Below are positions 2,586 through 63,913 of a stretch of DNA of 64,000 nucleotides, in pieces (the stretch's first letter is position 1; every line of letters starts with the position of its first letter). Under the pieces are notes generated by a model. That model saw only the letters and a list, made by a program, of their open reading frames with translations. It was not told the DNA's origin and searched no databases. The DNA is from Microvelia longipes (Eukaryota > Arthropoda > Insecta > Hemiptera > Veliidae), in assembly GCA_018340805.1 (NCBI GenBank), contig JACMZG010000008.1, positions 29,636,571 through 29,700,570 of the forward strand, written 5' to 3'. A program made the position numbers and the translations under genes.

Positions 2586-5150
2586 GGTTTACAAACATAC
2601 GAAGTTTCATTGTATTATCAGTTTAGTTCCGGTTTTATTAATTGGCATGAATATGCCAAACAAAACAATATGTCATTGACAGAATGTAAACAAATCACGT
2701 ATTTTTACTAATGCATTTGAAAATTCGCTTTTATCGTGGCAGTATGTCACATATATAAACCAGTAATATGACGAACTGATAAATCATAATAACATGTGGC
2801 TAATTAGAGACACGGGAGTCGCGAAGCGGCTCAATCCAACAAGTCATTTATTATTTAATCTTGTTAGTTAGTTGTAAACATTAATATTACCAGTTTCTTT
2901 CGTGACATGGATTTTTATGAAGTTTTCAGGATATTTTGGAGATATTTTAGGGCAAGGTCCAATACATTTCTCCACATAATACATTCAAGAACTAATAAAC
3001 ACCCAAGTCTCTGCACATAAAACAACTATCGTCAGAGCCATTTCTTAACCATTCAGTCATCATTAGTGTCTGAACAATAAAAAATAAATCACAAGGCTAC
3101 ACCAATTACCTAACTCTAAACATTACAAGGACAAACATTACCTAACTCTAAGATAAGTAAAAATACAAAAAAAATCCATCCAGATAGAATTAAACAAAAA
3201 CAAAATAAACGAACCGGCGAACGTTGTATAAAGGTAGTAAGGAGTCACTAGTTAGCTATGACAAATCGGTCTAACAGTCTCTCTATATTTATTAGATTTT
3301 CTAGTAAAACTCAAGAACCATCTCCTCTGGCGTTCAGAGGAGCGTAAGGGCCCTAACATAGCGTTATTCCTTTTTTATTTGAAGTGCTTCTAAAACGTAA
3401 TTTTATGTAACAAAGCTATTTGTCACATGAGTGTTGTTATTCTATATATTCGTAAAACCAACTGTCCGGTCCCTTCGGGTGCTCTAGTGCCCTATCGTCT
3501 ATTTCCCTACCTGATTGACCAACTTAGGATGCGTTACAAACGCTACATTTCATTAAATGCACACCGCTTTTGTTTAGAGTATGCGTGCTATCCTTAGGCT
3601 CAGAGAAAATACTTCTCAAGGATCCAGAAGATAGAAAAGCGGTGTTATATCCTTGATGTCTCAACACTCCAGTAATATCCTTGGAGAAAGGGCTAATATA
3701 GGGTAAAATACAGCAACGAATTCATGAGCAAGGGTCAGAATTGCTGTATTTAATATTTCTTTACATTGTTTCTTCCCTATTATTCAAGGAATAATAATAA
3801 CAAGGCATTTACCGTTTAAATACAAATGTATAAATAAGAATACTGAACTATTAGTATTTAATTAATCTATCGCAAAATTACTTCGTAACAAATGGTAATT
3901 TTGAAAATAAATAAATTGGCATTCAAAGGATTTTTCCAATACTGACCTTGTAACTATCCTTCTTAATTTAATATAATACGCTCCTTTTTACTTCAAACAT
4001 TTACTTAAGCTTACAGTGAGGAAATTCAAACTGTCTCAAACAAGGAATTCTGTCAAACTTGGCTTGAAGCATTCCAAAGACCCAAGTAAGAATACTTTAG
4101 TTTTACTTTTACAAACTAACTGAAATAGCTTTTCAAATTAAATTTGTTTCAAAGGTTTAACATTTAAGTTTAATAAAGTCATGGTCGAACAACTTTGTAT
4201 AATTTAACGACGTACTTACAATAGCATCACGCATAGGCAAAACAACTAGACAAAATATTATAACTTGTAAAAACACGATATTTGCATAAACTCTAGACGG
4301 CTGTTTTTAACTGTCTCTACTTACACATGTCAGTTACATTTTTTCACAAAATTCACAACGTTAACAACGTGGTAATTCAAATAAAAAACTTGGTCCTAGA
4401 AAGAGCATATGGCTTTTAGTTATCTAGAGAGGATGACACAACGTAATATTTTTACGTAGGTCAAGAAGCTTTTGAAATGTTAACTTGTCTGGCGTTTTAC
4501 TTCATATTCAAAATAACCACGATTTTTTTTATATTAAACGTATACTTCACCTTATGCTGCTGCGCCCACTGCAGATTCCATTTTGTCATTTTATTTAAAT
4601 AGTTATTTTGACTTTTTAATTACTGTATAAAAGCTAGCTGTTTTGTACAGTAAATAAATTATTTACTCATAAAATAATTTAAATTATTATAATTTTAAAT
4701 GAACGACAATAATATTTCCTGAGGCGCTGAATCCAATAATTTAGAGTTAGGTTACTCAAAATAATAAAATATAAAATAAAAATAGTAAAATTATAACTAA
4801 GTGTCAAGATATAGTAATTTTACTTACTAAACATAAATCTGTATTGAATCCTGTTTTGAAACTAAACTTGGTGGCATAAATAATTTCGATTTGTGTGTAG
4901 TAAATTTCAAAGACAAAATTACGCTCTTGCTCTTCAGTTTAAAGACGATTCCTTGATCCTAAAACAAAATGAAATTATAAATCTCCATCTACTGATTATT
5001 TGTCAGGCTAACAACATTGAAATAAGTAAAAATAAAATGTATAATGATAAAATTATAAAACCTATTTGCAAATTCGATGATTAATTTTGACACGTAGGTC
5101 TGCATGCCGGGTGAATTTAATTTGGAATGCTTCCTCTCTTTTCTCACCAA
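2586..5150. other. AT-rich intergenic stretch with one retroelement remnant
   Basis: Apart from a possible Penelope 3' end (about 2995-3100), nothing here is recognised. The part between 3180 and 3760 is slightly richer in GC (AACCGGCGAACG; GGAGCGTAAGGGCCC; TCCCTTCGGGTGC) and may be an old transposon. No frame longer than 63 codons was seen in 4893-5084, and that one has no recognisable product. Confidence 0.6.
2995..3100 (-). mobile_element. Decayed 3' end of a Penelope-like element
   Basis: Read on the minus strand, CACTAATGATGACTGAATGG is followed by GAAA and a GTGCAGAGACTT tail. This resembles the hammerhead-bearing 3' ends at 19597-19826, 52130-52230 and 54400-54487 (CACTGATGATGACC...GAAA...GTGGAGAGAC). 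The core has a G-to-A change (CTAATGA), so ribozyme activity is not expected. The 5' limit is undefined. Confidence 0.4.
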
Positions 5151-5170
5151 TCACATATTTAATTTTCTGA

Positions 5171-5722
5171 ATATATACCGTAGGTGTATAGAAAAAGGAT
5201 CGCGTTTGCAAAAAAATCCGAAACCGGGATGAAACCGGGATTACAGTTTCAGGCGTTTTAAGGCCTCCTGAGTGGTTTTTGCAAAGTCTGTGTGTCTGTT
5301 ATCATCGTAGCGCCCAGTGCATTTACGCTAGAAAGTAGAAATTTTGTACAAAAATCAGTCTACCGCTGTAGTTGTGTTATTCGGAAAATATTTTTTTATA
5401 ACATCATTAACCTGCAATAATTACTTAGCAAAATTTGAGTTGAAATTTAGTATATGTTTCGTTTTAATATCTATGATTTTTGTCGGATCATAAAAATTAA
5501 TGAGCATTGAGCTTGGCCAGTGCTGTATGGGTGAACGCTGAGAATGATACAGATGCATTTACTATCTGAAGACGAGCGTAGCGAGTCCGAAGGCATGTTG
5601 CAGTATAAATTTGGTGAACTATATTTCTGACGACGAGCGAAGCAAGTCCGAAGCAGGGAGGATGAGCGCAGCGAATCCGATGTAATTAGAAAAGGTTCAG
5701 AGGTACCCCGTACCCGACTTTT
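5171..5722 (-). repeat. R1 family, nearly complete reverse copy
   Basis: It runs from the complement of the R1 3' end (ATACCGTAGGTGTATAG, GCAAAAAAATCCGAAACCGG) through TGAGTGGTTTTTGCAAAGTC, TTGTACAAAAATCAGTCTAC and GTGTTATTCGGAAAATA. It ends with GGAGGATGAGCGCAGCGAAT and GTACCCCGTACCCGACTTTT. It is a good reference copy, about 550 bp, somewhat shortened internally relative to 16852-17614. The 85-codon frame 5471-5728 lies inside it and is not a gene. Confidence 0.8.
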
Positions 5723-10626: not shown

Positions 10627-11591
10627 ACGAGGTGTGTTCAAAAAGTATCGCGAATTTTGTGTTTTTTTCAAAAATTATTTATTTATTCATGAATATCTAT
10701 TTTGTCCCCTTCAAAGTAATCCCCATGAGATATTATACACTTGTGCCAACGGTTTTTCCAATCTTCGAAGCACTTCAAAAAATCATTTTTTTTATCTTGT
10801 TCAGCTCCTCCTTCGATGCCGTCTTTATCTCGTCAAGCGTAGCATAACGTCGTCCTTTCATGGGCCTCTTCAGTTTAGGGAACAAGAAAAAGTCACAGGG
10901 GGGCAGATCTGGGGAATACGGTGGCTGCGGCATCATTAGTGTGTTGTTTTGGGCCAAGTCGCGCACAAGCAACGATGTTGAGCAGGGGCGTTATCGTGGT
11001 GCAAAAGCCAATTTTTGTTCTTCCACAAATCCGGGCGTTTCTGGCGGATTGCTTCGCGCAAATTGCGCATAACTTGCAGGTAATATTCCTTATTGACCGT
11101 TCTACCCTTTGGCAAGAACTTTGATGCACCACGCCCTGCAATCGAAGAAAACTGTCAGCAAAACTTTCACATTCGACCGAACTTGGCGCGCTTTTTTCGG
11201 TCTTGGTTCGTGCGGCAGCTTCCATTGAGATGATTGAGCTTTGGTTTCCACGTCATAACCATAAACCCACGATTCGTCACCAGTTATGACCCTCTGGAGC
11301 AAATTTGGGTCGTCAACATTCGGAATGCATCCGCGCACTTAATTTCGTTTTTCACACAAAATTTGATACACGTTCTTTGATCCATTTTTTGAATAGGTAA
11401 AATCGAAGACGATCCAAAACATGTGCAAGCAAAGCAGCTGTCAACAAATTAATTGAACATTTAAAATGGCCGAGGTTGTCGGCATAAGTGAGAGACATGA
11501 GTACCAACATAACGCCACAAAAAAATTGAAATTCGAATATACGTAACCCGCGAAAATTCAAAATTCGCGATACTTTTTGAACACACCTCGT
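10627..11591 (-). mobile_element. Mariner transposon, internally deleted, with both ends
   Basis: Perfect 33-bp inverted repeats lie at 10627-10659 (ACGAGGTGTGTTCAAAAAGT...) and 11559-11591, each abutting TA. The element is 965 bp, compared with about 1.3 kb for a full mariner. Between the repeats, on the minus strand, are the start and the end of a mariner transposase with the middle missing. The perfect terminal repeats suggest recent movement, powered by an intact copy elsewhere. Confidence 0.93.
10683..11385 (-). pseudogene. Mariner transposase pseudogene
   Basis: Translation starts at the ATG complement of 11383-11385 (MDQRTCIKFCVKNEIK...), the usual N-terminus. After about 23 codons the frame jumps, near 11340, to VITGDESWVYGYD, so roughly 100 residues (DNA-binding helix-turn-helix region) are lost. 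The first catalytic Asp is in GDESWV (about 11276-11278). The second is in HDNAPA (10993-10995). The third is in PDLPPCDFF (10892-10894). The second-to-third spacing fits the D34D pattern of mariners after allowing for a frameshift between them. Another frameshift at a run of A near 10790 separates the last 30 residues, ending at the stop complement of 10683-10685. It cannot make a working enzyme. Confidence 0.9.
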
Positions 11592-16735: not shown

Positions 16736-16851
16736 TGCAATTTCATACACGTATTCAACTAAGTATGATGAACTAAGATAAAATGTTATTATTAGCATAA
16801 CTTACGATTATATCGGTTGACATATTATACAAAATGTAAAATAATCACGTT

Positions 16852-17614
16852 TTTTACTTTTCCTCATTAATACCGTTAGTATATAGGAAAAGTGAAGTCT
16901 TTGCAAAAAAATCAGAAACCGGGATCTCACCGGAATTATCTGTTTTAAGTGTTTTTAATGCCTCTTAAGACATTTTTACAAACAGACACACTCGTATGCG
17001 TGTGTCTTGACATCGTATCTTCCAGTGTATAAATGCTACAGAGTTGAAACTGTGTACAAAACTATATCGGTGTAATGCAAAAATCTATAGGTGTAGTGCT
17101 ATCCGAAAAATATTTTTTTTATGAGATCAATCATAAAACGCGGTAAAATAATGCTATTGAGATTTAGCACGCATGCAGACATGTATGAGACTATATGTAC
17201 AGAGTTTCATCTCATTATCAGCATTAGTTTAATTTTCATAAAATGTCTTGTGAACGTTTTTTAAAAAATCGGAAATTAATCTAATTATTTTCCGGCCAAG
17301 GAAATGAAATTTATTAAAAGCGTATACCTTTATTTAATTAATATTTACACCAATTTCGATTTCATACAACTAATATACGCATGATTTTTGTTGGATCATA
17401 AGTGTTAAGCAGCATCAAGCGTGGTCAGTGCCTGGGTGCAATGAAACGAATGTATTTACCATCTATGGACGAGTGAAGCGAGTTTGAAGACGTGTTGTAG
17501 TATACATTTAACGAATTGAATATTTTTAGGAAAGCGAAGCGAGTCTGAAGCAGGGAGGATAAACTTAGCGAATCCTATGTGATAAGGAAGGCCGAGATAC
17601 CCCGTACCCGACTT
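16852..17614 (-). repeat. R1 family, long reverse copy
   Basis: The longest reverse copy, about 760 bp, extends from the complement of the R1 3' end (TTTTCCTCATTAATACCGTT) to the complement of the 5' end (ACCCCGTACCCGACTTTTGT). Internal landmarks are AAACCGGGATCTCACCGG, GTGCTATCCGAAAAATA, TTTTTGTTGGATCATAAGTG and GAGGATAAACTTAGCGAATC. No open frame of note. Confidence 0.8.
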
Positions 17615-31437: not shown

Positions 31438-31659
31438 ACACGTCATTCATAATAAAATCAGGTTATAACCTCCAAATTCTTTTGGAGGTTAACGTAAACT
31501 TAAGCTTAACCTTTACCTTAATCAACCTTATCATCTTGATTAAAAATGCTATTTTAAATTTATTTTTATAATTTGAATTTTTAATTACTTTAAACAAAAT
31601 ATATGCTGTATTAAAAAAATTGAAACCTATATGACAATCTTAAGCTAATTATTAATTTT

Positions 31660-32138
31660 TCTCATTTATATTGTAGGTATACAGGAAAAGTATTGTGTAT
31701 GAAAAAAAAGAAATCAGAGTGGAACCGGAATTATCTGTTTCAGGCGTTTAAGGCCTTCTGAGTGGTTGTCTGCTTGTATGTGTGTGCGTGTGTGTGTATG
31801 TGTGTGTGTCCATTATCATCATAGTGCCCAGTGTATTTATGCTAGAGAGTTGAAATTTGGTACAAAAATCATTCTACCGCTGTAGTTGTGCTATTCAGAA
31901 AATAATTTTTTATGACGTAATCAACCGGCAATTATGACTCAGCGAAAATTTTAAAAAATCATAAAATGCGGAAAAATGATACAATCGGATAGCTATTTGG
32001 CACGCATGTGACAAATAGGGCGATGAGAGCGCATGTGAGTCCGAAATAGGGAGGATAAGCGTAGCGAATCTGATGTAATGAGAAACAGTTCCTTTTAGAG
32101 GTTTTATCCTTTTAGAAGTACCCTGTACCCGATTTTTT
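31660..32138 (-). repeat. R1 family, reverse copy with GT expansion
   Basis: Complement of the R1 3' end at 31666-31690, through AATCAGAGTGGAACCGGAAT and an expanded GT tract (31770-31812), to GGAGGATAAGCGTAGCGAAT and TACCCTGTACCCGATTTTTT. Confidence 0.8.
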
Positions 32139-47214: not shown

Positions 47215-47940
47215 ACATCGGGTACGGGGTATCTCGGAACTTTTCCTCATCACATCGAATTCGATATGCTCATCCTCCCACTGACCACGCTCAATGGCTT
47301 AATTTCTATGATACAACAAAAACCATGGCTAAACGTTTCGTATTGAACAAAACTTAGTGTACTTATTAATTAAGAAAAGTATACACTTGAACCAAACGAA
47401 ACTTAATGTGTTTATTTAATACGTAAAGGTACGTACTTGTAACAAGTTTCTACTCAATTAAATTGTTTCCCGGCTTTTTAGAATTTCTTAAAAAACTTAC
47501 ACAATTCATTCGATAAAAAATTAACTAATGCTGACAATGAGATAAAACTTAGCACATATGTTCTAAGTTTTATTAAGATGTTCTAAGAATAACATAAGTC
47601 TTATTCATAGCCACATGCGTGCCCAATCTCATAGCATCATTCTTCCGCAGTTGATGAAGTTTTCAAAATATTTGCCGAGTAATTTTTGCAGGTTAATGAC
47701 ATCATAAAAAATGATCTAAATAGCACAACTACAGTGGTAGACTGATTTTAGTACGAAGTTTCAACTCTCTAGCATGACTACAATAGGAGCTACAAAGAAA
47801 GACAGACAACTTTGTGAAAACTACTCAGGAGGCTTTTAAAACACGTGAAACAGATAATTCTGGTTTCATCCCAGTTTCGGATTTTTCGCAAAGAAAATAC
47901 TTTTCTTATATACCTACGGTATAAACGATGAAAAGTAAAA
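47215..47940 (+). repeat. R1 family, full-length forward copy
   Basis: It starts AACATCGGGTACGGGGTATC and ends GGTATAAACGATGAAAAGTA, about 725 bp. Landmarks in order are CACATCGAATTCGATATGCT, CACTGACCACGCTCAATGGC, ATACAACAAAAACCATGGCT, CGTAAAGGTACGTACTTGTA, ATTCGATAAAAAATTAACTA, GAGTAATTTTTGCAGGTTAA, CAGGAGGCTTTTAAAACACG and CGGATTTTTCGCAAAGAAAA. A duplicated GTGAGGAAAAGTAAAAA end occurs at 48026-48042. The frame 47139-47357 is incidental. Confidence 0.8.
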
Positions 47941-49650
47941 ATGTGTAAACGTTTATCAATATTGTGTGAAGAGGTTAATGAATAATTGATGATAGTTTAT
48001 TAAACTCACGTGCCTCACGTTATAAGTGAGGAAAAGTAAAAATTATTAGATACATATTTTAATTAAACATGTATGTAAATATGTATATACATTATTTTAT
48101 AAACATACCTGTAAATTGATTGGGTTTCATCATTTTAAATTTCCTGTCAATATCTAATAATTGTAGATTCCAAAACCTGTAACAAAAATGGAGAGTACAT
48201 AACATATGTATACCTAAATATATGTCATACATCCATCATATTTACACAACACATTATCCTAACGTAATAATTTTATCTTAATGTTACAACTTCATCATGT
48301 TTAAGATATGCTGATACATTTAATCAAGTGTCGTGATTAAATTTAATTTAATTCTATCACTCAATTTTTTAATTAATTTTATTAATATATTACTCGACTT
48401 TATTTCCATTAGGAAACATAATATATTAAAATATATTAAGAAGAATACTTTAAGTTAAAAGTATTGTATTTTAATATTGTACTTGTGTGCCAGGATTAGA
48501 TTTAGTTAAAAAGTCTTACAGTTGATTAATCCATGCAAACGTAACATTCCAATCCTACTATAAACTAGTATGCTCGTTAATATTGAACAGTAATACCACT
48601 CGCTTCATAATGTAAATTTGCTAGACTTAAAGTTTTTAAGTTTCTGAATTTCACTCCTTCTTTGAAGAAAATTTACTTAAGATTTGAACTTTTATGTAGT
48701 ACCCTCTAGTTCTAGTGCTACATTTAATTCCTCAACTGAAGATTGTTTAATAAAAGTTACAACAACGCATATAGTTTTCTTTTATTTATTTTTTACATAT
48801 AAATGTATAATTGTCGTCACAAGGATAAAAGTTAAGAAAAATGCTTGAATTGTCAAGAACTTGGATATGAAATTGTTCATGTAACAATAAAAATATATAC
48901 AATATCAGTAAAAGCTTGATGTGTCTTGTAAATCTATATTTTATCACAACTAACCGGCGATTGTGCTTTCTACTCTATCCTGAGATGTTATGTTCAAAAA
49001 TAAAATAAGAGATACTGCATAGAAAAATATCATATCAGAACATCGACTTACCGATTTATAAAAAAGGCTTGAACGTTGAAAATATCTTGCTGAGGACGCA
49101 TATTTTGTGGCGATTACCACAAAAAGCTATCTTAAGTTTAGATGAAATGGGTACTTGAAACAATAAGAACATGGTTAATACAAAATAATGTAAAAATAAA
49201 GTAAATAAAAATTATATATATTTTACTTGAAATCTATTTATATTCTATTAAAATAAATTAGCATAAAAATCTTTCATTTTAAAAGATTTCAAGCTATGTC
49301 TGGCACAACAGATAATGAACCTGGTAGCTCCTAAAATTGGCTTTGGAAAAGACGATATCCTCCCTAATGACGACCTTTGCTCCACCACCAAATCAAAATT
49401 AAACACCCCACCACCAGAAACAATTTTTTTTTGTTCTTACCTTTAGTAGACCGTTTATCTTACCTTTCCTGTAATCAAATAAACTTTTAAAACAATATAT
49501 AAAAAATTGTATATTATGTGCTTAATATGATGTTTAACTTGCTACTTATTTAAAACATACAAAACAATCAAAATCTAATTCCCAAAAAACCCTACGCTCT
49601 TTAATAAAATTGAATAATTTAACCCAACAAAATATATTTTTAGAGGATAT
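47941..49650. other. AT-rich stretch, nothing recognised
   Basis: No gene or element end apart from the extra R1 terminal sequence near 48026-48042. Confidence 0.5.
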
Positions 49651-50305
49651 TTTTTTTCTCATCACATCGGACTCGCTTCGGTCGTCCTCAGAATATAGAA
49701 GTCATTAAATTTATACTGCAATAAATGTAATGTCTGTCCTTGAACTTTTTCCAGTACGTAAGTATATTCATGATCCAAAACAAATCATGAATATACTTGT
49801 CGAATTGAAACGAATTTTAGAGTACATCTTTATTACGTAAAGGTTTACACTTGTACCACAATTCAACTCAATCAATTGATTTTCCGATTTTTTATAATTT
49901 TTTAAAAAACGTACACAAGACATTTGATGAAAATTGAACTAAATGGTAATATTTAGATGGAACTTGGAACATATGTTAGTCTTATAAATGCATACGTGCC
50001 TCCTAAATTTCAATCCGATTGCATAATTTTCCGCATTTTATGATTTTTTGAAATGTTTGCAGAGTCATTATTGTGGGTTTATAGTGTCATAAATATTTAT
50101 TTTCCGGATAGCACAACTAAACCTATAAATGAATAGACTAGGAGCTACGATAATAACAGACACATACATATATACATACAGACAACTTTGAGAAACTACT
50201 AAAAGGACCTGAAACCGGTAATTCCTGTGACATCCCACTTCCGGATTTTTGCTAACACAATACTTTTCTTATATACCTACGGTATAAATAAGGGAAAGTA
50301 AAAAA
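49651..50305 (+). repeat. R1 family, long forward copy
   Basis: It starts within the 5' end (TTTTCTCATCACATCGGACT, CGCTTCGGTCGTCCTCAGAA) and runs to the complete 3' end (ACCTACGGTATAAATAAGGG). It contains ATATACTTGTCGAATTGAAA, the position at which another copy is split by a Penelope insertion. Confidence 0.8.
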
Positions 50306-50428: not shown

Positions 50429-50759
50429 GTTTTGTTCTTTATAATTTTTTATTTATTCATAAACAAGCTTAAAATTATTAAAGACAGTTATTAAAAATTG
50501 TTTACTTATTATTTGTTAACATTATAGAAGTTATCATGTGACATATAAATGCGAGGAAATCTCCGCGGTGCTCCCGGTATTGTAACTTTCCAAGGCACGC
50601 CCGGTATATAGATGGAACAACTAAAACTAACGTGTTTCAAAAATATTACCTTCTGAAGTTATTAATCAGATATGATGGATTGAGCTGTGGAGTGCTATGA
50701 TAAGAAGAAATAAAACTAAACAAGTTTTCGTCTCCTTTTTACGAGCATTCCGCCTTCAA

Positions 50760-51943
50760 TTTGTATTGTTTTATTAAATAAAGTTTTAGATAGAGCCTCT
50801 GTCGATGTACAAATAAAGCACGAAATTTTAGCACTTGTTGAACTATGCCTTCAGCAAAATTACTTTATATTTGACAGTGAATTTTACGAATGTAAAGAGG
50901 GTTTAGCTATGGGGTCCCGTTATCAGGGTTATGTGCTGAAATTTCTTGCATTATTTTTACATTGAATTTATATTAGACTACAAGAATATAAGTAATAATT
51001 TTAAAAAAAATATATTAAGTCTTGGAGTAGGTATGTCGACGACATTTTTTGCGTATGGGTGGGGGTGAAGTTTTACCCTCGAGTTTATAGGTTATCTTAA
51101 TAGTTGTTATAAGGGTATTAGTTTTACATATGAAAAAGAAGTCGAAGGTATACTTAATTATTTAGATCTTACGATTACGCGCAGTAATAGCAATCTTCAC
51201 TTCAGCATTTACCGTAAACCTACTACTACTGATAATCTAATTTCTGCGACTCTATGACCCCTGGACCCACAAGTTAGCTGCGTTCCCTCTTTGATTAACA
51301 GACTTCAAATATTCCTCTCTTCACCTCCTGATATGATAAGAACTTAGCATAATAAAAATTTCTATAGCGGTTGAGAAACGGGGTACCGAGAATATGGTTA
51401 AACGTTATGGTGGACAAGAAGAAAAAGTAGGCTGTTCTAGACAGAATTCAACGAGTCTGATGTTTCTGAAATGCCACCTCATTCACCTAAAATCTTGGCG
51501 TTCTATACCGTACATAGGATCCGTCTCTGAAAAAATTGCTAAAAGTCATCAAAGCTAATGGACACAACGTTGCTATAGCAGTTGTGGTGCACTACGCACA
51601 CCTTGTCCCGATAATAAAGAGAAGTAGAGGTGGGAGACCGAAATGGTGTGTACTTATTAAAGTGTGGTGAGTGGCAAGCGCCTATTAGGCCAAACTGGGC
51701 GCATTTTTCTACCAGATTGGCAGAAGCAATCTTGTGCGCAAAGACAGCAAGTTTTACCAACACACGATTACGGAGGGCCATAATAACATCACCAGGTTGG
51801 CTTTTCTACATCAAATGTCTAAAGGTAGCGGACTAAATTTTTTAGAGAGGCTTGAAATCCAGCGTTTTTTAAACGAAGACGCGGATAAGTGCCTTAACGC
51901 TAGAAGCGAAGGTGGGGGCAACTCTGTGTGTGTAAAGCTATAG
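50760..51943 (+). pseudogene. Penelope reverse transcriptase / GIY-YIG endonuclease pseudogene
   Basis: In order and across several frames it shows the following. The EGLAMGS block of the reverse transcriptase is near 50900. YVDD (TATGTCGACGAC, 51033-51044), the catalytic aspartate pair, is followed by IFCV-like residues. HFSIYRKPTTTDNLI, the block after the catalytic core, is near 51200. A YIGSVSEKI segment is near 51505. The endonuclease has GVYLLKCGE (51642-51668) and then a broken FSTRLAE helix. The C-terminal region (51734-51943) reads LAFLHQMSKGSGLNFLERLE and ends at a stop. Multiple stops and frameshifts make it non-functional. In intact elements this protein reverse-transcribes the element RNA at a cut made by the GIY-YIG domain. 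Confidence 0.85.
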
Positions 51944-53449: not shown

Positions 53450-54138
53450 TTTGAAATTTATAGAAAACCTACTGCCACCGACAACGTGATTCCCGCCGAT
53501 TCCCAACATCCTTAGATGCATAAAATAACAGCTTTTATTGCTTTGGTCCACCGGTTATTAACCCCTCGACTCAGAAGCTTATTAAAAGGAACTAAACACG
53601 ATTTATAACGATTATAAGTTTGACTTGACTGATAAACTTACGAAAGAAAAATGCGTTTAGCTCTTCAAATGATGGGTGCAGAGCGTATTTAAGTTGATAA
53701 AGTATGGTGCTGTATTCCATATATTGGCAGTATTTCACAGCGGGTAGCTTCGATCTTTCAGTCTAATGACTTGAGGGTTTGTTTTACAAATAATAAGACC
53801 CTTAAAACTATTTTAGGCAGCGTTAAAGACCCTGTTTCGCCTGGAGCTAAAAGTGGTATTTACAAGGTTCAATGCAGTACCTGCCAGGTCGAATACTTAA
53901 GTCAGACTGGAAAAAAGTATAAGCACCAAAGCTGAGGAGCATACACGTAGATCGAACTGCAAGTTTTAGCAGCATTTAGGAGCAGAGAATCATCATGATG
54001 ACCACACAAAGTTGGCTGCCTTCATTTTATTGTTAAAGGGAAGAAAATGGGCTTCTTAGAAAAACTTACAATTTTGAGAAGCCAGGAAACACTGAGCGAT
54101 AATAATATTAATGAGAGGGGAGAAAGAACGACCTTCTG
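53450..54138 (+). pseudogene. Penelope C-terminal protein fragment with GIY-YIG domain
   Basis: With stops and frameshifts it reads FKIYRKPTATDNVI (post-catalytic reverse-transcriptase block), then HKITAFIALVHRLL. Next come a CIPYIGSISQRVASIF segment and GIYKVQCSTCQVEYLSQTGK (about 53856-53915), the GIY-YIG core with its CxxC pair. The second motif is changed, with LSQTG where YIGQTG is usual. The C-terminal end reads KGKKMGFLEKLTILR. It belongs to the same family as the protein at 50760-51943 but is diverged, so the two insertions come from different source lineages. Confidence 0.82.
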
Positions 54139-54443: not shown

Positions 54444-55499
54444 TAAAGAAATATATTTTTGTGGAGAGACTTCTTCTTCTTTTATTAAGATATACTTGTC
54501 TTATTAAGACAAAACTTAATGTAATTATATATTACGTTAAGGAGTACACTTGTACCCCATTTTAACTCATTAGGATTATTTACCGATTTTTTAAAAATTG
54601 TTCACCTTTTTTTTACTTGTTGTAATTTTGATTTAATTGGATTATTTTATAAGTTTTACAATTTTTAAAAAAATGTACACTAGTCATTTGATAAAAATTG
54701 AACTAATGCTAAACTTGGTACATATTTTTTCGCGTTTTATGATTTTTGGAAAATTGTTGGAGTCATTATTGCGGGTTAATAAAGTCATAAAAAATTATAT
54801 CCCGGACAACACTACTACACCTATACCTTGGTTTTTGAAGCAAGTTTATACTCTCTAGCATAAATACACAAGAAGGCACTATGATTTCAGACACACACAA
54901 AATTCAGACACACACACACAAAATAGACAAATTTGTAAAAACCACTTAGGAGTCCTTTAAACACTTGAAATGGATAATAGTGACATCCCGGTTTTTTGCA
55001 AATACAATACTTTTGCTATATACCTATAGTTTAACTGAGGAAAAGATAAAAGTAATAATATTGTATGTCTAACTCAAAAATAACCTTTATATAAATAAAG
55101 ATAATATATGTAATAAAATCGAATCTTTTTAAGTATGCTATTATAAATACACGTACTGTAGCTTAACCGTATTCCTTTTTCTAGAGTTATATTAGAATAC
55201 TAAAAAAAAACTTCTTAAAACTTGATGAAAGAAATCCTTTGCTTTTTGTAAGTAGTCATCTCTACGAATTAATATACAGATTAAAGAACTCAAAAAGGAT
55301 AGGTTTAAGGATACAACTTCCATTTATAATCTAGTCGAGGATGTTATCAGAAAGCATTTCATACATCAAAAGAATTTCATGGTAGATCAGTTTCTTAAAA
55401 GAAAAAGAACAGTTTGGGAAAAATTATTAAAAATGTAATAAGATTTTAATGTCATAAGGAGAAGTCAGTATGAGTTCACAAATAAAATATTCAAACCAA

Positions 55500-58752: not shown

Positions 58753-58758
58753 GTGAAT

Positions 58759-59535
58759 AGTAGGGGCAAAAGGGCATTCTGGGCCTCCTCCTCCCTCCTC
58801 CTCCTCCTCCTCCACCACCACCTCTCTCCTCCTCCTCCACCACCACCTCCTCCTCCTCAAGCATCTCTTTATAGTTTTATACCCCCCCCTCTTATGCTTT
58901 GCATAGTGTAATAACAGTAACATTAAATATGCTTGCATAAAAAATAGGTCCATATAGGTAGAAGCAGGATGATTTTAGGTGTGATGTAGTAGACCACCCT
59001 AGATTATCAAGTGTCTCTCTTAGTAAAAAGCCTTCCCACCACGTCAAGGTGGAGACACATCGGGAAGGTGTACAGTGCCCGTCCTCGCACTGTACTATGG
59101 CGACCATCCTCTTTAAAAATATCGCCTCTATATATTTTTTGTATTTTTTATATTTTTAATTTTTTTGTATTTTTATATTTTAATTTTTTTTTTTGTATTT
59201 TTATATATTTTTTAACGTATTTACACAAACACTTACATCTCTTTAGCGCCATATAGGTTTACGGGACGCTATGCACGCCAGTGACCTTAAAAAGATGGAA
59301 TAATGCGGTTTACGGGACGCCATGCCACGCCAGGGACCGCTCTGAGGGTTTACGGGTCGCTATGCCACGCCAGGACCCTCTATGGTTTACGGGACGCCAT
59401 GCCACGCCAGGGACCCAATTATGGCACGCTTCGCCATACTAGAGATCCATCTCGTATTTGCGGCAGCTGCTGAGACATGAGTGTAAGTGTAACATATGAT
59501 TAAACTCTAAGAATAAACTCGAAAATAAATCCCCA
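58759..59535 (+). repeat. Left inverted terminal repeat
   Basis: It pairs with 63025-63814. From the outside in it holds: AGTAGGGG and GGGCATTCTGGGCC; a CTCC/CCACCA polypyrimidine tract (58785-58858); a unique part with CAAGGTGGAGACACATCGGG; a T-rich stretch (59130-59215); four copies of a roughly 45-bp GGTTTACGGGACGCCATGCC unit (59257-59420); and CGGCAGCTGCTGAGACATGA. Homology ends near AAATAAATCCC (59525-59533). Frames 58747-58953, 58892-59107 and 59011-59256 are not genes. Confidence 0.93.
59257..59420 (+). repeat. Four tandem GGTTTACGGGACGCC units in the left terminal repeat
   Basis: Units begin GTTTACGGGACGCTATG, GTTTACGGGACGCCATG, GTTTACGGGTCGCTATG and GTTTACGGGACGCCATG. Each is followed by CACGCCAGGGACC or a close variant. 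The mirrored set is at about 63140-63308. Repeated sub-terminal motifs are common transposase or integrase binding sites, but that role is inference here. Confidence 0.85.
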
Positions 59536-59559
59536 CAAATGAAACTCACGTGGCTACAC

Positions 59560-60098
59560 ATGAAACCGGTAGTAAATTTATGGTTAAACCGAGTGCAGGT
59601 CCGTTTATGAGCCATTTATACAAACTCCATACTCGAGCCTGAGCGCAAGCAAATTTTTTATTGTGCTTATGAAGAAGGCAGGGCCTCCAGCTATAACTCA
59701 ATGAACTAATTTTGGGACATTCTATCGCAAGTAAATCTATAATGACGCAATTATTTGGCAAGTATTTTTCAATAAACGTACTTTACCTTTAACGACAAAG
59801 TGTGTGTACCGATTAGATAAAAGTTAAATACTAAATACAATCGCTCGTACTCAACATCACCGTCATCCCAGTTTATTCTGTGAAAATTAACGTAAGCCAA
59901 GAATTGTTTTCATTGATTTAGAATCTTGAATGTAATTGCAGGTGGTAAAAATAACCAGCTCAAAGACGATTTCGTCTCCAGGTCAAAACATGCAAGCTCT
60001 TTAACGATGACTTGCCCCTCATTATCTACAAACCTTGAATATCTATAATAGCGGTAGAAGGCATCTTGACTGCACGAAGCCGAGATACAACTGACCAT
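59560..60098 (-). pseudogene. Broken minus-strand gene of the Maverick-like element
   Basis: The first segment begins at the ATG complement of 60096-60098 (MVSCISASCSQDAFY...) and contains a VDNEGQVIVKELACFDLE stretch and a SWLFLPP stretch. A middle part in another frame reads INWDDGDVEYERL. The last part (59546-59761) reads IIDLLAIECPKISSL and RVWSLYKWL. The order and motifs recall a conserved but uncharacterised protein type found in repeats of arthropod genomes. I recall it as having a nuclease-like (RNase H fold) beginning, but that is unverified. At least two frameshifts or stops interrupt it. It is transcribed away from the tandem array, divergently from the rightward genes. A TATATAAG lies just upstream (complement of 60104-60111). 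Confidence 0.5.
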
Positions 60099-60138
60099 AT
60101 CCCCTTATATATTCTGACATCATAAACTTATATTTCAT

Positions 60139-60900
60139 CTTGTGAGCCTATATGAGCCATTTAGAGTCGCTTTGGAGCCTATATGAGCCAATTTGGAGCC
60201 GTGTTGGAGCCTATATGAGCCATTTAGAGCCATGATGGAATCTATATGAGCCGATTTAGAGCCGTGTTGGAGCCATTTAGAGTGAGTAGAGCCTATGAGC
60301 CATTTAGAGCCGAGTGGAGCCATATGAGCCATTTAGAGCACGAGCCTATATGAGCCAATAGCCGAATATGAGCCATTTAGAGCCTATATGAGCCATTTAG
60401 AGCCGGTGTGGAGCCTATATGAGCCAATTTGGAGCCGGTGTGGAGCCTATATGAGCCAATTTGGAGCCGAGTTGGAGCCTATATGAGCCATTTAGAGCCG
60501 GAGTGGAGCCAATATGAGCCATTTGGAGCCTATATGAGCTATCGCAGAGCCTATATGAGCCGAGTTGGAGCCTATATGAGCCATTTGGAGCCATTTAGAG
60601 CCTATATGAGCCATTTAGAGCCGTGTGATGAGCCATTTTGGAGCCTATATGAGCTATCGCAGAGCCTATATGAGCGAGTTGGAGCCTATATGAGCCATTT
60701 GAGCCATTTAGAGCCTATATGAGCCATTAGAGCCGAGTATGAGCCATTTGGAGCCTATATGAGCCATGTTGGAGCCAATATGAGCCAATATGAGCCGATT
60801 TGGAGCCGTGTTGGAGCCAAGTAGGAGCCTATATGAGCCATTTAGAGCCGATGTGGAGCCAATATGAACTATCGCAAAGCCTATACGAGCCGATTTGGTT
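60139..60900. repeat. Array of short GAGCC-containing repeats
   Basis: About 760 bp built of modules of 8-12 bp: GAGCCTATAT, GAGCCATTTA, GAGCCGTGTTG, GAGCCAATTTG. They combine into higher units such as GAGCCTATATGAGCCATTTA. The order is irregular. It lies exactly between the divergent left and right genes of the element, so it may be a shared promoter, enhancer or replication/packaging region (inference). Frames 60135-60332 and 60429-60722 are translated repeat, not genes. Confidence 0.92.
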
Positions 60901-60970
60901 GTGTTGCAGCTAATATGGGTCTAACTGGAGTTGTTGAAGCCGCTTCAGCGGTGTTTTATCTTTCGTTTAG

Positions 60971-60980
60971 TATATATATA
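60971..60980 (+). promoter_or_regulatory. Possible TATA box for the rightward genes
   Basis: TATATATATA follows the repeat array and lies 49 bp before the first rightward ATG (61029). A TTTAGTATTGAGCCAG stretch about 25-30 bp downstream would be the start region. Position only; no consensus initiator is certain. Confidence 0.4.
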
Positions 60981-61028
60981 GAGCTAGTGGAGCTCCAACT
61001 TTAGTATTGAGCCAGACACCGAGCAGAG

Positions 61029-61259
61029 ATGTTCTCCAAGATACGTGATTCGAGCCTCTACAAGAAGAGATTTGAAAACTTGACATTTAGTTGTCCAGAC
61101 TGCTTAAAAAGTTTATACATAAAAAGAATTTACTTCGACACCAACGAGATAAACACTGTGAGGGGGTTGAACGCGAGGATGGTTCAGAGTTGGGGATTCT
61201 ACAAGGACCCCATTGCATGTAAACATGATGAGTCAATTGAAAACTATAATAAACTCTAG
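61029..61259 (+). CDS. Small Cys/His-rich protein of the Maverick-like element
   Basis: A 76-codon open frame, ATG at 61029, stop TAG at 61257-61259. The protein is basic. It has a CPDC pair at residues 23-26 (FSCPDCLKS) and a later C-x-H (ACKHD, residues 64-68), which could bind one zinc. The context GARM-QSWGFYKDP is unlike any family I can name with confidence. It is the first gene right of the tandem array and has a TATA-like box at proper distance. The next frame, acidic, starts soon after in another register, so this frame may be only the N-terminal part of a longer protein interrupted by a frameshift. Confidence 0.5.
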   Translation: MFSKIRDSSLYKKRFENLTFSCPDCLKSLYIKRIYFDTNEINTVRGLNARMVQSWGFYKDPIACKHDESIENYNKL

Positions 61260-61282
61260 CGAGGCAGTATGTGATCGGAAAA

Positions 61283-62630
61283 GGATAGAAAAGAAGAAGA
61301 AGACGATGAGGAGGAGGATGAAGAAGATGATGAGGAGGATGAACCTATTGATGATGTAGTAAGTAACAAAGACATAGAAGAGCCAAAAATGGTAGAGATG
61401 TTAAATTTAAGTGAACACCCCGAATATGATGAATCTATAGAGAGTCTAGAGTATCATACTCACTATCCGTAAGCAAACTCAAAGCTAGACGCCGGAGAAG
61501 AGATACGGATCCAGTACAACTCCAAGACATTTATACGCTTCCGAGTGAAAGTTTTATATATTTGGAAACTATCCTTTTTAAAAGAAGGAGGAAATACGGC
61601 ACCGGCGAAGCACAGACTCATCAACAACGCATTCCCGTTTTTATTCGACGAGATCCGGTATGAATTTGTGGAGTTGAGATTGATAAAGTCAGAAACCCCG
61701 GAATGGCTTCGACTCTAAAAGGGGTTGCATCTCACGCGCCTATATCGTATTCCTTAACAAATATGGGATGGACAATACCCTTCAATGAAGTACAAGAAGA
61801 ATCATCCACCCGGTACAACGTCTGTCTACCTTTATCCTCGTTACTCGGATTCGCGGAAGATTACCGAAAAGTTTGATAAACGTAAAGCAAGAGCTAATTT
61901 TGGTAAGAGCGAGAAACGATTCAAATTGCTTTTACAACACGTTCCGTACGCCGATACGGCTTTCACGGTCAGAAGTTCGCGAGAATGTTAAAATTGAACT
62001 GCTATCACTTTGTTGGAAAATACCTTACGTTTCGGTTAACGAAGTTCAGAAACTCAATTTATTAATTATTTAAAAACAGAAAAAATAATTTCCCTCCATT
62101 TCCGAGCGTGGGATATGCACGAGTATCCGCTATTACCTACGTCAAACCGACAAGTATGGTCGATTAAAACTTCGACTCAACTCGAGAAACCGCGATTTTT
62201 AATTTTAGCCTTTCAAAAGGGTAGAAATAACGTCGTCGATAAGGCATCCAGTTGTTTCGATCACTGCGACTGACAAATGTCAAGCTTTATCTCAATTCAC
62301 GAGTGTTCCCCTACGATGATTTTAAATTTAAAATTCTCCAAAATAAATTTGCTTTATTATACCACATGTACGCGGCGTTTCAAACGTCGTACTACAACAC
62401 TTATCAGAGTCTACCGTACGTATCCTTTTCAGATTTTAAGAATAAATGTCCTGTTGTAATCATTGATTGTTCGAAACAATCAGAGTCTATCAAAAAGGGT
62501 CCGGTAGATGTGAGATTAGAATTTGAATCTGAAAAAGATTTCCCGGCAAATACTACCGCGTACTGTCTATTGTACCGATAGATTAGTTCAGTACAACCCC
62601 CTGACTAGCATTGTGCATAAAATGACATGA
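61283..62630 (+). pseudogene. Acidic segment plus capsid-like (jelly-roll type) protein, broken
   Basis: An acidic stretch (61291-61345, almost all Glu and Asp) runs in one frame to a TAA at 61470-61472. The same frame continues directly with EEIRIQYNSKTFIRFRV and INNAFPFLFDEIRYEF to TAA at 61716-61718. Further blocks in shifted frames are GWTIPFNEVQEE (about 61767), VWSIKTSTQLEKPRFLIL (about 62157) and PYDDFKFKIL and VVIIDCSKQSESIK in the open frame 62252-62581. A last frameshift at about 62578 precedes the true end, TGA at 62628-62630. The motif set matches a conserved arthropod and nematode repeat-encoded family (often named after nematode F54H12.2). I take this as a virus-type capsid protein, unverified. 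At least four frameshifts or stops. Confidence 0.6.
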
Positions 62631-62706
62631 ATAGACATGTCTGGTCGAGGGGTGGGGTATGTATAAATAAAGAAAGCAGAGCAATAATAAATCAGTATTG
62701 CGCAAG

Positions 62707-63058
62707 ATGTCGACCATTTACCATCTAAGTGACGGTAAAAAGGTATTAGTTTGTTTAGTTAAAGGTGTAGCTTTCTTGAGATTAGAACATGGTAAAAAGA
62801 AGTGTAAACATTCACATGTCGATTTTGAGTTGTTGAGATCCGCGAAAAAATGAAATTAATAATTATTGTGTAAAACGTAGTAAAGAAGATGTACAACTTG
62901 ATCAAAAATTTGGTTTAATAAAAGTAAGATTGGTTAATCCTAAATTTCACGGACGTCAAGTAATTATTCGTCCGATTGTTTCGTATGAAGAAGATAAAAT
63001 ATTTTGTGTTTTAAAAAACCAGAGTGGGATTTATTTCGAGTTTATTCTTAGAGTTTAA
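62707..63058 (+). pseudogene. Small late gene of the Maverick-like element, one frameshift
   Basis: ATG at 62707, open for 48 codons (MSTIYHLSDGKKVLVCLVKG...) until TGA at 62851-62853. From 62849 a second frame continues without stop to TAA at 63056-63058 (QKFGLIKVRLVNPKFHGRQV, ending NQSGIYFEFILRV). The break sits in a run of six A, as a one-base insertion would produce, so it may be a sequencing or recent error. About 117 residues in total, rich in Lys and Val, with no family recognised. Its last codons lie inside the right terminal repeat, so part of the gene end is also present, inverted and headless, at 59500-59535. Confidence 0.5.
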
Positions 63059-63814
63059 TCATATGTTAAATAGCCTTACACTCATGTCTCAGCAGCTGCC
63101 GCAAATACGAGATGGATCTCTAGTATGGCGAAGCGTGCCATAATTGGGTCCCTGGCGTGGCATGGCGTCCCGTAAACCCATAGAGGGTCCCTGGCGTGCA
63201 TAGGCGACCCGTAAACCCTCAGAGCGGTCCCTGGCGTGGCATGGTGTCCCGTAAACCGCATTATTCCATCTTTTAAGGTCACTGGCGTGGCATAGCGTCC
63301 GTAAACCTATATGCGCTAAAGAGATGTAAGTGTTTGTGTTAAATACGTTAAAAAAAATATATAAAAATACAAAAAAAAAAAAAATATAAAAAATTACAAA
63401 AAAAAATTAAAAAATATTAAAAATACAAAAAAAATATATAGAGGCGATATTTTTAAAGAGGATGGTCCGCCATAGTACAGTGCGAGGACGGGGCACTGTA
63501 CACCTTCCCGATGTGTCTCCTTGACGTGGTGGAAGGCTTTTTACTAAGAGAAGACACTTTATAATCTAGGGTTCTAACTACATGGCACACCTAATCAATC
63601 CTCTTCTACCTATATGGACCTATTTTTATGCAAGCATATTTAATCTGTTGTTATTACACTATGACAGCATAAGAGGGGCGGGGGGTATATAAACTATAAG
63701 AGATGCATTGAGGGGAGGAGGTGGGGTGGTAAGGAGGAGGAGGAAGAGAGGTGGTGGGTGAGGAGGAGGAGAGGAGGAGGTGAGGAGGAGGGCCCAGAAT
63801 GCCCCCCCCCTACT
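63025..63814 (-). repeat. Right inverted terminal repeat
   Basis: Complement of 58759-59535 with small indels: the outer G run is longer, the GGAGGA tract (about 63700-63790) is differently arranged, and several single-base gaps occur. It contains the four GGTTTACGG units in reverse (63140-63308), an A-rich stretch (63345-63440), and the complement of the CAAGGTGGAGACACATCGG segment. The frame 63082-63282 is not a gene. Confidence 0.93.
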
Positions 63815-63913
63815 GTGAATAATTACTTATAAAACTTTATTATTCGTTTAAGTTCATAATTATTTCATAAACTTCAAAACTATTAATGAGTTTTCAAATT
63901 TTAAGTTTTTTTT

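Follow-up and report, generated by a model that had tools for sequence, protein, structure and literature searches.

The stretch of Microvelia longipes DNA analyzed here (64,000 nucleotides of contig JACMZG010000008.1, referred to as the window) contains a 5,056-bp element that combines a 6-bp target-site duplication (TSD), long inverted terminal repeats and a gene for a double jelly-roll capsid protein. The element has, in our judgment, an even chance of being a compact, capsid-bearing and non-autonomous member of the Maverick type. Its features are collected in Table 1. Published systems are compared below on the basis of the covered portions of the cited papers.

Ends of the element

Both copies of GTGAAT lie exactly flush with the outer ends of the inverted repeats, and the chance of a given flush 6-mer is about 1 in 4,096. 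A chance TSD, or a simple inverted duplication, was ruled out by this flush position at both repeat ends. The outermost bases of the element are AGTAGG on the left and CCTACT on the right. When the two arms were aligned, 739 of 749 aligned columns were identical; BLAST gave a single match of 801 columns (E 0.0) with 11 mismatches and 41 gap openings. A four-copy unit of about 32–39 nucleotides is present in each repeat, with the right-hand mirror at 63146–63314. The single-strand fold of the left sub-repeats (59256–59487) was not better than those of 200 shuffles. The original prediction, made from the letters of this DNA, had claimed an exact GTGAAT duplication, AG-starting terminal repeats of about 0.78 kb and a total size of 5.06 kb, and all of these were borne out.

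Intact vertebrate Mavericks have 6-bp TSDs, lengths of 12,723–24,620 bp and repeats of 46–1,447 bp, and their commonest end motif is (AGT)2//(ACT)2 (PMC8097293, part covered). The ends AGTAGG//CCTACT agree with this motif at five of six positions. From the published end motif together with the 6-bp TSD, we infer insertion by a Maverick-type integrase.

Table 1. Positions of the element and its parts in the window (nt, nucleotides; aa, amino acids; TSD, target-site duplication)
Feature	Position	Strand	Details
Element, ends excluding duplication	58759–63814		5,056 bp
Left TSD	58753–58758	none	GTGAAT
Left inverted terminal repeat	58759–59533	+	775 nt, starts AGTAGGGG
Sub-repeat unit in left repeat	59256–59415		about 32 nt (GGTTTACGGGACGCCATGCC...), four copies spaced 37–51 nt
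Left gene	59549–60104	-	broken frames 59549–59782, 59772–59909 and 59913–60104; at most about 185 codons
Central GAGCC array	about 60144–60867	+	between divergent genes; mostly 10–11 nt steps
Small protein frame	61029–61259	+	76 aa, CxxC pair
Double jelly-roll capsid gene (PF21738)	61389–62629	+	length of about 413 codons, with both ends represented
Capsid piece, PF21738 positions 21–87	61664–61873	+	E 1.4e-11, 44.6 bits
Capsid piece, PF21738 positions 86–140	61789–62070	+	E 1.7e-8, 34.5 bits
Capsid piece, PF21738 positions 138–209	62040–62270	+	E 5.6e-20, 72.2 bits
Capsid piece, PF21738 positions 203–310 of 316	62243–62578	+	E 2.3e-39, 135.9 bits
Last small gene	62707–63058	+	two overlapping frames; enters right repeat by 33 nt
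Right inverted terminal repeat	63026–63814	-	789 nt, CCTACT at end
Right TSD	63815–63820	none	GTGAAT

Capsid gene and its relatives

PF21738, the double jelly-roll-like domain, was matched in order by four overlapping pieces in different frames, each of which exceeded the curated family threshold of 27 bits. The capsid-like frame of the original prediction was thereby recovered, although its gene is frame-broken as assembled. The start at 61389 aligned with residue 1 of a related ant protein (27 residues, E 1e-4) and further N-terminal matches were found, while at the 3' side the match to a relative reaches 62627. The gene therefore spans its full length. Nevertheless, at least seven frame changes were counted within about 1.24 kb, from aligned pieces whose frames were left unjoined, and the first frame hits a stop directly after its aligned part. 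The assembled copy cannot yield the capsid protein from one frame.

Modeling of a less broken copy had been proposed with the original prediction. The relative P0021, which itself is without about 60–90 N-terminal residues, was modeled, and its predicted structure supports a double jelly-roll fold. Taken with the PF21738 matches, this model indicates a double jelly-roll major capsid protein, a feature shared with Maverick/Polinton elements.

A search with one capsid piece from the window found 15 proteins among 16 candidates. Eight of the 15, three from ants and five without an organism label, were used to build a profile, which at a threshold of E ≤ 1e-5 matched 1,094 of 3,422 candidates. Among the 120 matches listed, an organism is named for about 84 (counted by hand), and by their genera these are all taken to be Hymenoptera. 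This Hymenoptera-only list is biased because the profile was seeded partly with ant proteins, and other hosts are possible. Taken alone, the capsid relatives suggest an insect as the host of the element. By hand count, the matches listed include at least 10 proteins from Cyphomyrmex costatus and at least seven from Ooceraea biroi; many proteins per species are as expected of a mobile family. Identity between the window pieces and their relatives is about 32–55% over the main pieces. No capsid relative was found in IMG/VR, phage records or GTDB genomes, the profile matched no PDB chain by sequence, and the rest of the window holds no further PF21738 match.

Gene layout and central array

Between the repeats, a minus-strand left gene, the array and a plus-strand module follow one another, so that two divergent modules meet at the center. 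This arrangement of divergent genes around a central array had been claimed beforehand and is confirmed. In 60140–60910, GAGCC occurs 64 times on the plus strand and never on the minus strand. Its spacing is 10 or 11 nucleotides, near one helical turn, in 49 of 63 intervals and 20–21 nucleotides in five. TATATA flanks the array on both sides, at 60106 and 60971; since the motif is found at 10 places in the element, it is weak and suggestive evidence by itself. TATAAA is located at 62662, ahead of the last small gene. No occurrence of an exact 20-base repeat unit was found in IMG/VR. As a separate observation, the right module (61011–63026) has a CpG observed/expected ratio of 1.32 and 38% G+C, compared with 0.94 and 30% in positions 1–58000 of the window.

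The left-gene frames and the last small gene had no Pfam match. The 78-residue left-gene piece at 59549–59782 had no homologue in the protein collection or in IMG/VR, and a single weak match in the PDB (E 0.78). This gene may resemble an uncharacterized insect protein family, though the searches matched none. The first small frame gave a weak Pfam match to CoiA_N only (E 0.049, under the family cut-off) and had no relative in IMG/VR.

Search for replication and integration enzymes

There are 65 stop-to-stop frames of at least 40 residues, of which 46 were scanned against Pfam, covering the interior except for one array frame. The other 19 comprise 17 in the terminal repeats, one in the array and one outside the element. 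In these 46 frames neither Pfam nor NCBIfam matched a protein-primed polymerase (PolB), an RVE integrase, a packaging ATPase or an adenovirus-type protease, which agrees with the earlier claim of no visible polymerase or integrase; no penton was seen either. Besides the four strong capsid pieces, the Pfam scan gave five weak matches (E 0.018 or worse) and NCBIfam gave two weak matches only. PHROGs, applied to ten frames, likewise gave weak matches only, the best being to an acidic stretch (E 0.0017). Elsewhere in the window, 40 frames of at least 75 residues passed the complexity filter, and 39 of them, one low-complexity frame being left out, showed no polymerase, integrase, ATPase or protease.

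Excess of insertions and deletions

The two arms differ by 10 mismatches versus 44 gap events, of which 28 are single-base; outside two low-complexity zones the counts are five and 29. As a control, 30 pairs of dispersed repeats outside the element were compared; in every pair, mismatches exceeded gap openings at least 4.5-fold (54 to 7 and 40 to 2 are two examples). The tandem array matched against itself gave intermediate values, such as 65 mismatches to 39 gap openings. The low number of gaps in the control argues against an indel error rate that affects the whole window, making the excess a local feature of the element.

Ordinary decay should produce substitutions more often than indels. 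With 44 gap events against 10 mismatches in the arms, an old decayed copy is doubted as the full cause of the broken frames; in favor of true decay are the frame changes in the capsid gene and the stop after its first aligned part. Perhaps the repeated sequence was poorly polished, or the element gathers indels unusually. The word broken is used here for the assembled copy and not necessarily for the locus itself.

The same excess in the arms, set against the control, might suggest that the inverted repeats and the TSD stem from a mis-assembled palindrome. This is highly improbable. A palindrome would not explain why different flanks carry an exact 6-bp repeat, flush with termini like those of Mavericks, and the indel excess is better explained by poor polishing of repeated sequence.

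Comparison with known systems

Maverick/Polinton elements, now the family Eupolintoviridae and formerly Adintoviridae (PMC12451622, part covered), share with the present element the 6-bp TSD, the long AG-starting inverted repeats, a double jelly-roll capsid and two gene modules. They differ in size, 12.7–24.6 kb for intact vertebrate ones (PMC8097293, part covered) against 5.06 kb here. In the covered part of PMC4028283, a packaging ATPase is given for 83% and an adenovirus-type protease for 74% of Polintons, while neither was found in the element, nor was a polymerase, integrase or penton. In most vertebrate Mavericks the modules face inwards; in the cane toad they diverge, as they do in the present element. 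Of the Maverick/Polinton-like reading in the original prediction, the ends, the TSD and the capsid gene stand, whereas the four enzymes remain unmatched and the length is that of a much smaller element.

Compared with virophages (mavirus, Sputnik), the gene set is far smaller and no common genes were recognized by sequence. Meldviruses are reported to carry adenovirus-class virion genes without a recognizable PolB or integrase, but the covered part of that paper (PMC11071296) describes no element of 5 kb with a 6-bp TSD. The hymenopteran PF21738 "double jelly roll-like domain" proteins are homologous to the element capsid, and are known here as database proteins.

Interpretation

As no integrase of the Maverick type was recognized in the element, the simplest account is that a larger Maverick whose ends match provides it in trans. 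In the proposed mechanism, the RVE-type (retroviral-type) integrase of a helper Maverick or adintovirus would insert the element ends, and a protein-primed polymerase, likewise supplied in trans, would start replication at the long repeats. The GAGCC array might drive or enhance transcription in both directions, or might be an origin. The capsid protein would package the element, and its gene may have been kept for that reason. Such an element would be a satellite of larger Mavericks, comparable to the virophages of giant viruses.

Several points weigh against this account. The analysis, which covered the sequence of the window, showed neither a second copy nor a helper, an empty site or a particle. 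Broken frames reduce the sensitivity of profile searches, and the left gene and the small genes, being without family assignment, could encode an enzyme. The likeness to canonical Polinton capsids is at the level of the PF21738 profile and the predicted fold of a relative. The P0021 model has a mean predicted local distance difference test (pLDDT) score of 68.6, its first half being poorly predicted, and in Foldseek it reached only low TM-scores against viral models, at best 0.48 by query length.

If the left gene were an unrecognized replication or integration protein, the element would belong to a lineage of small autonomous viruses or transposons, 5 kb long and capsid-bearing, with DNA made by a host polymerase, as in parvoviruses. 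The gene-packed, complete-looking interior is in line with this, as is the abundance of PF21738 proteins (1,094 found, with the named ones among those listed all assigned to Hymenoptera). Nevertheless, we consider it unlikely: Maverick-type ends and a 6-bp TSD suggest an RVE integrase, which none of the scanned frames matched; the left gene gave nothing in Pfam, and its 78-residue piece nothing in the protein collection or IMG/VR and only the one weak PDB match. Derivation by deletion from a full-size Maverick/Polinton, with loss of polymerase, integrase, ATPase and protease, is a poorer candidate still. The repeat lengths fit those of intact vertebrate Mavericks (PMC8097293, part covered). 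DNA transposons often have deletion copies, and a deletion that cleanly took out entire genes is conceivable. However, no truncated Maverick gene was recognized at a breakpoint, and the full-length capsid gene and the gene-packed, organized-looking interior, whose divergent modules meet at the array, speak against this origin.

The non-autonomous Maverick-type reading can be extended, tentatively and with some doubt, to a distinct lineage of about 5-kb insect Maverick satellites that bring their own double jelly-roll capsid gene, rely on borrowed integrase and polymerase, and are the source of many hymenopteran "double jelly roll-like" proteins, an animal counterpart of the virophages. If true, capsid-bearing satellites of Maverick-like viruses would exist in animals, and a large unexplained capsid-like protein family of ants, bees, wasps and sawflies would have a home. 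Among the titles and abstract openings covered, none describes 5-kb capsid-bearing Maverick-like insect elements, the subscription literature being mostly outside this coverage.

Other features of the window

Rfam gave no match in the window at gathering scores. A mariner-type transposase-like frame lies at 11105–11338 on the minus strand (Transposase_1, E 8.8e-4, 19.6 bits, under the cut-off of 24). Other marginal matches among the 39 window frames were Hemopexin (E 0.0043) and Ion_trans_2 (E 0.0061). Two frames, 50720–50962 and 53693–53932, may resemble a Penelope-like reverse transcriptase and a GIY-YIG end; the Pfam scan gave no such family. Dispersed repeats were located at 5149–5436, 16843–17129, 31648–32010, 47612–47945, 49770–50305 and 54724–55044. 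They occur in both orientations, some being about 300 bp long, and are about 67–80% identical, with mismatches far outnumbering gap openings.
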